Shown here in pieces: positions 22,619 to 54,950 of a stretch of 63,704 nt of DNA. This DNA comes from Betaproteobacteria bacterium. Lineage in GTDB: Bacteria; Pseudomonadota; Gammaproteobacteria; Burkholderiales; Burkholderiaceae_D. Location: assembly GCA_016868055.1 (NCBI GenBank), contig VGHX01000003.1:1-63704 (forward strand), given 5' to 3'. Under the pieces are notes generated by a model. The model was not told where the DNA came from. It saw only the letters and a program-made list of their open reading frames with translations, and searched no databases. The position numbers were made by a program, and so were the translations under genes. Each line of letters begins with the position of its first letter. Positions within the stretch are counted from its first letter, which is position 1.

Positions 22619-23539
22619 TCAAACATAGCCGCCGGCATAGATGATCACTTCGCCACCGGTGTTAATCTTGAAGCTCGAAATACCCGGCAAATCGTGCGTG
22701 TTTACCCCACCCAGATCAAGCTTAACGATGCCGCGTTGTTTGAGCTGCTCCATCGCGCCCCACAAAATCAGGTTATGCGCATTCAGAGCGCGGCCTTGCG
22801 GGTTGGTCCAACCCAATTGGTAGGTGGCGCTGCTGCCATGGATTAAAAACAGCATCGCAGCGACCGGCCGTGATTGCCAGCTGGCGTGAAGAATGAGTGC
22901 AGACTTTGCGCCGCCTTCTTCCAGATAATGCTCAATAAAGCCTAGCGGTAATGCATAGAATCGCTTGCGCTCGCGTTGTCGATTTTCTTCAGCGAGCACG
23001 CGCGGTAGTTCGGGTGAGTCGTGTTCTAACTCGGAAAGCTTCAGGCCTGAGCGCTCGGCAGCAGATAAGCGGTTACGCCAGTAAGGGTGCAAGCTGGCGC
23101 GTAGCGCTGTTAATGGTTGTGAGAGATCGAGCATCACGGTGGAGTAGCCCGTCAGCACGCGTGTCAGTGACGCCATGCTGGGATGCTGCGGGTCTGTCAG
23201 GTCCGGCGAAAATAAAATAACGCGTGGCCGGGCGACCGGCAACGACCGCTTGAGCTCGCGATGAATTTGCGCCTTGTCGGCGTCAGCGATATCACTGAGC
23301 CAGATCGGGCCGCGCGTGCAAAGCGCGATGCTGAATACGCCCGCATAGCGCCTGCAAACAAACTGTGCCAATGCGACGCTAAGCCCCTCAAACAAAATTT
23401 CAGCGCGATGTGTTCTCATACCCGGCAAGCGCATACTGGCGCCGTAAATCCAGTGCTGCTGCATCACCGCACTGTGCGCTGCATGTGCAGCATCCCAGCG
23501 CTCGCGAGAGGTTTGGTTCCAAATAATTTGCGTGTTCAC
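22619..23539 (-). CDS. FemAB/GNAT-like acyltransferase (copy 1)
   Basis: AMLFLIHGSSATYQLGWTNPQGRALNAHNLILWGAMEQLKQRGIVKLDLGGVNT; paralog at 53390-54334. Confidence 0.75.
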   Translation of the reverse strand: MNTQIIWNQTSRERWDAAHAAHSAVMQQHWIYGASMRLPGMRTHRAEILFEGLSVALAQFVCRRYAGVFSIALCTRGPIWLSDIADADKAQIHRELKRSLPVARPRVILFSPDLTDPQHPSMASLTRVLTGYSTVMLDLSQPLTALRASLHPYWRNRLSAAERSGLKLSELEHDSPELPRVLAEENRQRERKRFYALPLGFIEHYLEEGGAKSALILHASWQSRPVAAMLFLIHGSSATYQLGWTNPQGRALNAHNLILWGAMEQLKQRGIVKLDLGGVNTHDLPGISSFKINTGGEVIIYAGGYV

Positions 23540-23613: not shown

Positions 23614-23841
23614 ATGCCCCAAGCCGCCAAGCCGCCAAGCCTACCGCCAAGCCAGATAAAGCCGGCTGTCCGACGGGTACGTGGGCTTGATCTGGATAAG
23701 CCGCGCCCGACAGCGGCAGGCTGGGCACTAATCATGCTTTATTTCGCCGTACCGGCCATGCTGATTGGCGCTTTTATCGACATCCTGATTCAGTGGGCAA
23801 GCGGCGAGTGCGTCGGTCTGTGGTGCTGGCTGTTTAAATAA
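23614..23841 (+). CDS. Micro-membrane protein (copy 1), divergent from FemAB-like gene
   Basis: One predicted TM segment and C-terminal DILIQWASGECVGLWCWLFK; matches ORF 54355-54552. Confidence 0.7.
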   Translation: MPQAAKPPSLPPSQIKPAVRRVRGLDLDKPRPTAAGWALIMLYFAVPAMLIGAFIDILIQWASGECVGLWCWLFK

Positions 23842-24039
23842 AATTTTCAAAAAGATAATTCGGCTGAGCCGAATAGTTACTTTGAATAGCAAGGGTAGCG
23901 TTATTTGGCAATTTGTTTCACAATTGCCATGATATCGTTTGGTGCGAGCTTGAGTTCTCCGATCTCGTGCCGAATTAAGAGACGATAGCGTGCGGCCTGG
24001 GTCATCAGGTCCCGAATCCGCTTGCACAAGGAGAGGCAG

Positions 24040-24903
24040 ATGTTTTTTTTCGTGGGACTAGGCGTCGTGTTTGGCTGCGTTTTTGGCGGCTACATTATGG
24101 CGGGCGGAAAAATGGCGCCGATTATCAAGGCGGCGCCAATTGAGGGCTTCATTATCGTTGGCTCGGGTATCGGTGCGCAGCTGATCGCCAACAGTATGCT
24201 GATCTTCAAAGGCGGCTTCGGCGGTATCGGGCGCTGTATTGCGGGACCAAAATGGAAGCCGCAGGATTATCTCGATCTGATTCTGATGGTGGGCAAGCTG
24301 CTCAACGTCATGAAAAAAGAGGGCGCGGTTGCCCTCGAAGCGCACGTCGAGAATCCGGATTCATCTGCTATTTTCGGTGAATACCCCAAGCTCGCGGGAG
24401 ACCATTCCATCGTTCACATGATTTGCGATACGCTGCGACTCGTCGTAATCGCGCAGGGTAACCTCGACGCGGATGCGGTCGATGACGTCATGAAGAACTA
24501 CATTAAAACCCACCATCACGATGAATTGAAATTCCAGGGCATGTTGTCTAACGTGGCGGGTGCGCTCCCTGCGCTCGGTATTGTGGCCTGCGTGTTGGGT
24601 GTGGTGAAAACCATGGGTGCGATTGATCAACCGCCACCTGTGCTGGGTGCGCTGATTGGTTCCGCGCTGGTGGGTACCTTCCTCGGGGTGTTCGTGGCAT
24701 ACGGTGTGTTTGACCCGCTCGCCGCGCGCCTGGGGCAAATCATTGACGAAGACGGTCAGATCTACAAAGTCATCAATGAAATGATTGTCCAGACCTTGCG
24801 TGGTCACCCAGTGCCGCTAGTGATTGAGGCGGCGCGGAGCGTGATCTCGCATCAGAATCAGCCAGGGTTTGCCGAAGTCTTCGACGGGCTCCGCGGCAAG
24901 TAA
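24040..24903 (+). CDS. motA: MotA-like flagellar stator protein (orphan)
   Basis: MFFFVGLGVVFGCVFGGYIMAGGKMAPII..., VGTFLGVFVAYGVFDPLAARL; no motB in window. Confidence 0.85.
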   Translation: MFFFVGLGVVFGCVFGGYIMAGGKMAPIIKAAPIEGFIIVGSGIGAQLIANSMLIFKGGFGGIGRCIAGPKWKPQDYLDLILMVGKLLNVMKKEGAVALEAHVENPDSSAIFGEYPKLAGDHSIVHMICDTLRLVVIAQGNLDADAVDDVMKNYIKTHHHDELKFQGMLSNVAGALPALGIVACVLGVVKTMGAIDQPPPVLGALIGSALVGTFLGVFVAYGVFDPLAARLGQIIDEDGQIYKVINEMIVQTLRGHPVPLVIEAARSVISHQNQPGFAEVFDGLRGK

Positions 24904-53389: not shown

Positions 53390-54334
53390 TCACAACAGAT
53401 AACTTCCCGCCAGCGTAAGCAGCTTGCCGCCGGTTCTGAGCTTGAAGCGTGCAACCCCTGCGCTGCGTATCGTGTTGACGCCGCCAAGATCAAGCTGCTG
53501 TATGCCAAGCACTTTGAGCTCTTCGATCGCTTTCCACAGAATCAGGTTGTGCGCGTGCGCATCGCGCCCGGCATCAGTGGTCCATCCGATGTGATAAGTG
53601 GCAGATGCACCGTGCAGCAGAAACATCATTGCAGCAATACGCTCGCGACCAGCATCAGCGCGAAGGGTCAACAGGGTACTCGCGGCGCTTTTACGGGTGA
53701 GGGTATAGCGCTCGACAAATGCAGGCGGTAAGCCATCAAGACCGCGCGCTTGGCGTTGCGCGATATCGGCCTCCAACAACCACCGAAACTGATTCAGCTG
53801 CGTCCCAACGCGCTGCACTGAAAGACACGATGACTCGCTACTCGCCAGCTGATGACGCCAACGATGTTCAAGGTTGGCGCGTAACTGCTCCATGCTTGGT
53901 CTGAGGTCGAGCAGCACGGTCGACATACCGCTCACGACACGTCGCATCGGTGCGAGGCCGTTTGGCTCACCCGCGGCTTGCTCGGGGCTGACAAGCACGA
54001 CCCGCAGGCCCGATAGTGGCAAGGATTTTTTGAGTTGCTGATACACCTGCGATTGCACGTCGGGTAAAACCGGCTGGCGCCAAATCGGTCCGCGTGAGCA
54101 GAGCGCCACTGATGCAATACGTCCGAAGCTTCGCACGATGAACTGCGCCTGTGCCACTGTCTCGCCATCACGCACGACGCGCGCTCTCAGCACGGGAACA
54201 CCGAGCGTGAGCATCGCGCTACCGTAGGACCAGTCTTGTTGAAGTGCGCCGAGCGCGGCACTGTGTGCAGCGTCCCAATCAGCCATCTGATGGCCGCCCC
54301 AGTGCACCTGCCATCGATTAGAATCTTCGGTCAT
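53390..54334 (-). CDS. FemAB/GNAT-like acyltransferase (copy 2)
   Basis: MMFLLHGASATYHIGWTTDAGRDAHAHNLILWKAIEELKVLGIQQLDLGGVNT. Confidence 0.75.
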   Translation of the reverse strand: MTEDSNRWQVHWGGHQMADWDAAHSAALGALQQDWSYGSAMLTLGVPVLRARVVRDGETVAQAQFIVRSFGRIASVALCSRGPIWRQPVLPDVQSQVYQQLKKSLPLSGLRVVLVSPEQAAGEPNGLAPMRRVVSGMSTVLLDLRPSMEQLRANLEHRWRHQLASSESSCLSVQRVGTQLNQFRWLLEADIAQRQARGLDGLPPAFVERYTLTRKSAASTLLTLRADAGRERIAAMMFLLHGASATYHIGWTTDAGRDAHAHNLILWKAIEELKVLGIQQLDLGGVNTIRSAGVARFKLRTGGKLLTLAGSYLL

Positions 54335-54354
54335 ACCTGAGAGCCCATCCAAGC

Positions 54355-54552
54355 ATGCTCGAAAAAATGAAACGTCAACGTGATGAACAAACCGTTATGG
54401 GGCATCGACTCGAAGAGCCCCGCTTCACGCTGTGGGCAGCATTCTGGGCCTTGGTCTACGTTGGGCTGCCGGTAGCGGTGGTGGGGTTGATCTTGGATGT
54501 GCTGGTTCAATGGGTGACAGGGCAGTGCCTCGGACTGTGGTGCTATTTCTGA
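54355..54552 (+). CDS. Micro-membrane protein (copy 2)
   Basis: LDVLVQWVTGQCLGLWCYF; paralog of 23614-23841. Confidence 0.7.
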   Translation: MLEKMKRQRDEQTVMGHRLEEPRFTLWAAFWALVYVGLPVAVVGLILDVLVQWVTGQCLGLWCYF

Positions 54553-54566
54553 ACGCCTCAGATCGT

Positions 54567-54950
54567 CTACTTACCGCATGCGTAGCGCCACCCACCTGCG
54601 CCGCCCGGGTTTTGCGTTAACTTGTCGACCGGTCCGGGTGTATTCACTTGTCCAATCAGACTACCCTTTGCCATGCGCTCGGTGTACATCGAATACGAAA
54701 TAATCCGCGAGGTTTCTTTGGTGCAGTTGTACTCTTTGATTAGCTTCATGGACAGCATGCCACGCGGGCCAGGCTCGCGATATGACTGAATTTCTATCAC
54801 GCGTCGCAAGTCACCATTTTGCGAAATAGAAGAGCTCTCGGCGTAGACCACTGTGCCGCGAATGTTTTCAAAAACCTTGACCAACTCGGCGCGCGAAGCA
54901 GCGCAAACACAAAACAAAATGATGGCCAGGAGCAGATGTTTAGGTGTCAT
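54567..54950 (-). CDS. Surface-adhesin E-like exported protein
   Basis: Signal peptide; FENIRGTVVYAESSSISQNGDLRRVIEIQSYREP...MKLIKEYNC. Confidence 0.65.
   Translation of the reverse strand: MTPKHLLLAIILFCVCAASRAELVKVFENIRGTVVYAESSSISQNGDLRRVIEIQSYREPGPRGMLSMKLIKEYNCTKETSRIISYSMYTERMAKGSLIGQVNTPGPVDKLTQNPGGAGGWRYACGK

Follow-up and report, generated by a model that had tools for sequence, protein, structure and literature searches.

To our knowledge, much is understood about FemX-like enzymes in the cell walls of Gram-positive bacteria and in antibiotic pathways but hardly anything about them in Gram-negative bacteria, and no membrane partner has been reported for the streptothricin-type aminoacyl-tRNA peptide synthases Sba18 and Sbb17. 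These synthases (9wqy, 9wqw) are the best PDB sequence match of the enzymes described here (E 4e-5, with an aligned AGINRFKLGFGG block) and, unlike our pair, belong to natural-product clusters and use a soluble small-molecule acceptor. The FemABX peptidyl transferases (S. aureus FemX and FemA, Weissella FemX; PF02388) share with our enzymes the same tandem-GNAT fold over ~300 residues (Z ~25–27) and, going by alignment, a lysine at the position matched to FemX Lys305 (PMC12945691). Our enzymes differ from them in being ~15% identical, shorter than S. aureus FemX and FemA, found in Gram-negative hosts and tightly linked to a membrane micro-protein.

The nearest functional analogies may be HfsK and TorE/NapE. 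HfsK, of the Caulobacter holdfast, is like our enzymes a FemX-like tandem GNAT in a Gram-negative bacterium and acts at the membrane by way of an unidentified component there (PMC5362036); the likeness would be one of function and not of family membership. As described, HfsK differs in having a C-terminal extension of 25 aa that c-di-GMP binding requires (PMC5362036), whereas our proteins end at the fold (copy A within a few residues of its last strand in the AlphaFold2 model). TorE/NapE are single-pass micro-proteins that assist in the membrane anchoring of a partner enzyme system (PMC6134056). Our micro-protein is likewise small and single-pass, a single helix with an N-in charge pattern, and is comparable by functional analogy only, TorE/NapE, unlike our pair, serving respiratory systems. 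The PEP-CTERM FemAB (TIGR03019) is also a FemAB-like protein of Gram-negatives; copy B scores 11.2 bits where its equivalog cut-off demands 260, and for copy A there is no match, which places both outside that family. No description of a FemAB and micro-protein pair was found in the literature searched.

Two such pairs lie ~31 kb apart in the window, by which we mean the whole stretch of DNA analysed (63,704 nucleotides), as the preliminary description had reported, and both are laid out identically, with enzyme and micro-ORF divergent (Table 1). The two FemABs align strongly (40% identity, E 3.5e-72) and carry the string quoted for them as ALCSRGPIW and ALCTRGPIW, and the micro-ORF motif P-x4-G-x3-D-x-L/I-x-Q-W-x2-G-x-C-x-G-L-W-C is found in both copies. 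The longest open reading frame of the copy A enzyme (53390..54352, minus strand, 320 aa) begins at a TTG at 54352, but in its orthologues the internal ATG at 54334 is the start, so that the 314-aa form (53393-54334) is more likely. The neighbours around pair A are the same in four sibling genomes, and comparison with related genomes revealed no clean empty site for the pair. The adjoining Adhesin_E-family protein, probably not part of the module, is secreted, and other contigs of the genome encode some four weaker paralogues of it.

Table 1. Features of the two pairs and their neighbours (positions in the window).
Feature	Position	Strand	Remarks
FemAB/FemX-like transferase, copy B	22619..23539	-	306 aa; apparent resident copy of the genus
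Micro-protein, copy B	23614..23841 (stop codon included)	+	75 aa, one TM helix, C-terminal CVGLWCWLFK
motA (flagellar stator protein)	24022..24903	+	Pfam MotA_N 88 bits; follows micro-protein B directly
FemAB/FemX-like tandem-GNAT transferase, copy A	53390..54334	-	314 aa from conserved ATG (more likely start); Pfam, AF2, Foldseek/VIA
Intergenic gap, pair A	54335..54354	.	20 bp between two divergent ATG codons
Micro-protein, copy A	54355..54552 (stop codon included)	+	65 aa, one TM helix, C-terminal CLGLWCYF
Adhesin_E-family protein adjoining pair A	54567..54950	-	stays next to pair A only in four sibling genomes

The preliminary description had let the module stand or fall with a coding signal in the micro-ORF. 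Such a signal is present, in that the micro-ORF recurs beside FemAB and is under purifying selection, with pairwise dN/dS of ~0.05–0.17 within the A and B groups, synonymous sites being saturated or nearly so in several of these comparisons. On this sequence evidence the micro-ORF is a real, conserved, unnamed gene for a predicted membrane protein; neither micro-protein A nor B matches any model in Pfam, NCBIfam, PADLOC or PHROGs. The 30 genus-level loci all have it beside FemAB, and 76 of 80 loci picked solely by their FemAB have it there in divergent orientation; the two sets overlap, so that some genus loci are counted in both. Three of the four exceptions are contig ends and the fourth is a paralogue, a Limnohabitans-type FemAB (L065, 6001-6915) whose MAG (WB5_2A_230) also has a full pair (L097). 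When 797 genomes (399 of the order and 398 of the phylum) were searched in reverse, with the micro-protein profile alone, every credible match had an adjoining FemAB, bar one chance match (L130). The terminal extensions inspected contained no Rosetta-stone fusions of the two proteins.

The pairing is looser in the Alphaproteobacteria. Among 240 genomes sampled afresh, 39 had a FemAB, and ~15 of the 27 new loci that were read carried a micro-ORF; about half of the FemAB relatives were without a detectable one, a count in which very divergent partners could have escaped the profiles. The enzyme family thus does not always need the micro-protein. A rule set beforehand, that a FemAB of at least 140 bits always comes with a micro-ORF, held in 13 of 13 cases in the first sample, failed in this one and was abandoned, the FemAB tree explaining presence better: presence and absence require 4 changes on it, where 2000 shuffles of the labels needed 21 on average and never fewer than 13. 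So few changes suggest that the micro-protein belongs to one FemAB subfamily and was gained about once, its presence mapping essentially to one clade. At one locus (L256, G1142:C14) a single in-frame TGA interrupts the FemAB frame beside an intact micro-ORF, be it by assembly error, decay or recoding.

Arrangement varies as well. In L270, from the fresh alphaproteobacterial sample, the micro-ORF lies downstream of FemAB on the same strand, and in genome G1073 a full micro-protein (L246, 1318-1584; DxxLYxxFxxxxDSCYGIFCLF) is encoded ~28 kb from FemAB, so that more than a shared promoter must link the two genes. The earlier statement that the promoter is shared was not supported in that form: the likely ATG codons are 20 bp (A) and 74 bp (B) apart, no sigma-70-like promoter was found around pair A (54000-54800), and elsewhere the partner is co-directional or unlinked. 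We therefore rejected a common promoter as the reason for the linkage.

While a real two-gene module, present twice and with genes evolving together, was thus borne out, the proposal that both genes had duplicated together was not. In the 2.7 Mb genome the FemAB search matched copies A and B alone. Of 21 genomes of the genus, 11 carry one A plus one B, eight have B alone, two have neither, and none has A alone. The FemAB tree places copy B in a clade confined to this genus and copy A in one shared with Limnohabitans and other Comamonadaceae, within whose radiation it lies. Duplication within the genus, in tandem or as a segment and followed by unequal divergence, might be suggested by the two copies within 63.7 kb and by the 11 of 21 genomes that have both; we hold it to be very improbable, as forcing all FemABs of the genus into a single clade lowers the log-likelihood by 85 and is rejected by the AU test (p-AU 0.00014), and as copy A nests with Limnohabitans and Comamonadaceae for both proteins. 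Tree and AU test together led us to discard it. Both proteins of copy A are closer to Limnohabitans than to copy B, the A-type micro-proteins having a mean identity of 52% to the Limnohabitans-type set versus 36% to the B type, and the pairwise distances among micro-proteins correlate closely with those among FemABs (Mantel r 0.87, 90 pairs, 0 of 2000 permutations). The micro-protein thus follows the same history as FemAB, and pair A probably arrived as a unit. We prefer to see pair A as acquired horizontally (a xenologue), or at least as the product of a divergence older than the genus; it looks to have come from a Limnohabitans- or Comamonadaceae-like source, with copy B as the resident pair, the direction of transfer being taken from nesting in an unrooted FemAB tree. 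The GC content of copy A is nothing unusual, which would fit an old transfer or a similar donor. Across Burkholderiales and Alphaproteobacteria, the two genes appear to have been inherited and moved together.

The model of micro-protein A is a single long helix (residues 26–55) with a short C-terminal turn (pLDDT 83). In all 112 micro-proteins scored, positive charge is higher in the N-terminal part than in the tail, from which we predict an N-in/C-out topology with a cytosolic PRxT motif and a periplasmic C-x4-C tail. Invariant or nearly so across Burkholderiales and Maricaulis are G16, P22, R23, T25, P39, D48, G56, C58, G60, W62 and C63, and the C-x4-C spacing is constant across two classes, even where four residues are inserted ahead of it. 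The Rhodobacterales-type micro-protein, which is divergent from FemAB in orientation, is shorter and retains the PRxT motif and the helix but misses the aspartate and the cysteine tail. Every version shares the presumed cytosolic PRxT stretch and the helix, the parts that a role in docking and anchoring would be expected to conserve.

Both enzymes match PF13480 (Acetyltransf_6; copy A 35.1 and copy B 42.5 bits, cut-off 22) and PF02388 (FemAB; 25.6 and 31.5 bits, cut-off 24). The AlphaFold2 model of the copy A enzyme (pLDDT 94, pTM 0.91) has its best Foldseek/VIA matches in FemX, FemA and the aminoacyl-tRNA peptide synthases, with VIA Z scores of 26.6 for S. aureus FemX, 26.5 for FemA, 24.8 for Weissella FemX and 24.7 for Sba18/Sbb17; MprF (17) and acetyl-CoA GNATs (at most 14) score well below these. 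It has the tandem-GNAT fold of FemX, with VIA Z of 24.5–26.6 over 275–301 residues. A block AGxxRFKxxxGG, in which F-K is invariant in all 40 enzyme sequences, aligns with AGINRFKLGFGG of Sba18 (its AGINRFK part) and with AGVVKFKKGYN of FemA. K304 (320-aa numbering) would by family alignment be the equivalent of FemX Lys305 and DhpH Lys329, the direct alignment being to Sba18 and FemA only; that lysine has been reviewed as the key residue of aminoacyl-tRNA transfer (PMC12945691). Fold and lysine position support an aminoacyl-tRNA-dependent transferase, and the enzyme is probably FemX-type, with aminoacyl-tRNA as its likely donor.

Of 11 Rhodobacterales-type loci, 9 have the tyrosyl-tRNA synthetase gene tyrS adjoining FemAB; coming from one lineage only, this hints weakly at an aminoacyl-tRNA donor. 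In these genomes (L142, L177-L183, L185) anmK often adjoins FemAB as well, and a short micro-ORF sits between tyrS and FemAB on the opposite strand, overlapping tyrS by a few bases in L178. In one Comamonadaceae lineage (L077, 2761-8903), an ABC ATPase gene and cytochrome c maturation genes (ccm) come right after FemAB. We found no operon context common to all lineages, the neighbours guaA, ccm, tyrS/anmK and motA being lineage-bound or partial.

Taken together, we propose that the pair forms a FemX-type transferase, probably dependent on aminoacyl-tRNA, with a single-pass membrane protein as its dedicated adaptor; to this reading, including its mechanism, we assign a probability of about 0.5. 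The micro-protein would insert in the membrane N-in/C-out, and its conserved cytosolic stretch G-H-x-[LI]-x-x-P-R-x-T would dock the otherwise soluble transferase at the inner membrane face. There, with its FemX-type lysine (K304 when counted in the 320-aa form), the enzyme would transfer an amino acid from aminoacyl-tRNA to a membrane-bound envelope precursor, perhaps a lipid or else lipid-linked peptidoglycan or glycan. The C-x4-C tail would lie in the periplasm, probably closed by a disulfide or capping the membrane, and may add a role that the Rhodobacterales version has lost with the tail. Pairing, selection, co-inheritance and lysine position are read from sequence and the fold from prediction, while we infer the aminoacyl-tRNA donor, the docking, the topology and the envelope acceptor.

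The near-invariance of both cysteines and an aspartate in all full-length versions of two classes, together with the N-in/C-out charge pattern, might instead speak for a micro-protein that controls the transferase as a periplasmic or redox sensor or an inhibitor, its C-x4-C tail serving as a thiol switch. We think this rather unlikely, as pairing persists in the Rhodobacterales branch where the whole tail is missing, and redox genes do not recur as neighbours across lineages. The absence of the cysteines from those still paired versions also weighs against the micro-protein as substrate, a small membrane peptide aminoacylated by FemAB in the way that aminoacyl-tRNA ligases act on scaffold peptides. 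Dedicated pairing, co-evolution and the aminoacyl-tRNA-dependent peptide synthases among the nearest solved relatives would all fit such a role, but the micro-protein has neither an invariant lysine nor a conserved terminal residue, its N- and C-termini differ in sequence and length, and where cysteines are present they are predicted to be periplasmic, away from the cytosolic enzyme; this reading appears improbable to us. A toxin-antitoxin or otherwise selfish module, in which the enzyme neutralises a small hydrophobic membrane toxin, seems highly implausible: the micro-protein is indeed a small single-TM protein with predicted periplasmic cysteines, and the pair moves between lineages as a unit, yet most loci are divergent and not co-directional, the partner is unlinked in G1073, many relatives have the enzyme alone, and the resident copy stays at one place beside motA. 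The arrangement and the enzyme-only genomes are not those of a co-directional linked pair with a toxic small protein, and the defence and phage models of PADLOC and PHROGs gave no match.

That position beside motA raises the question of whether the pair works with the flagellar motor, for instance by modifying an envelope component near the stator. As a neighbour of FemAB, motA is the most specific recurrent one: it adjoins copy B, FemAB at other loci of the genus, in L137 (f49) and L139 (f127), and in Azospirillum brasilense (NZ_CP059452), where 16 bp separate motA from FemAB, and the arrangements differ. Most lineages, however, lack it there: no A-type locus has it, Limnohabitans, Maricaulis and Rhodobacterales are without it, and so are most alphaproteobacterial loci. 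The Azospirillum FemAB, for its part, has no detectable micro-protein. As the link was also noticed after the fact, we treat it as a lead, and a function in the motor as a long shot.

Returning to the transferase with its membrane adaptor, a more specific version can be put forward tentatively, and we would not bet on it at even odds: an undescribed, widespread Gram-negative FemX-like aminoacyl-tRNA transferase complex of an enzyme and a 50–75 aa membrane adaptor with a periplasmic C-x4-C cap, which would decorate an envelope component with an amino acid and would be recruited, and possibly gated, by the adaptor. A micro-protein that has no family model, yet is conserved and moves with one enzyme subfamily, points to a two-part membrane enzyme missed by annotation pipelines. 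It makes a concrete candidate for the means by which a FemX-like enzyme that is soluble may reach the membrane, the kind of component proposed for HfsK, and isolates of Limnohabitans, Maricaulis and Rhodobacterales make the adaptor proposal testable.
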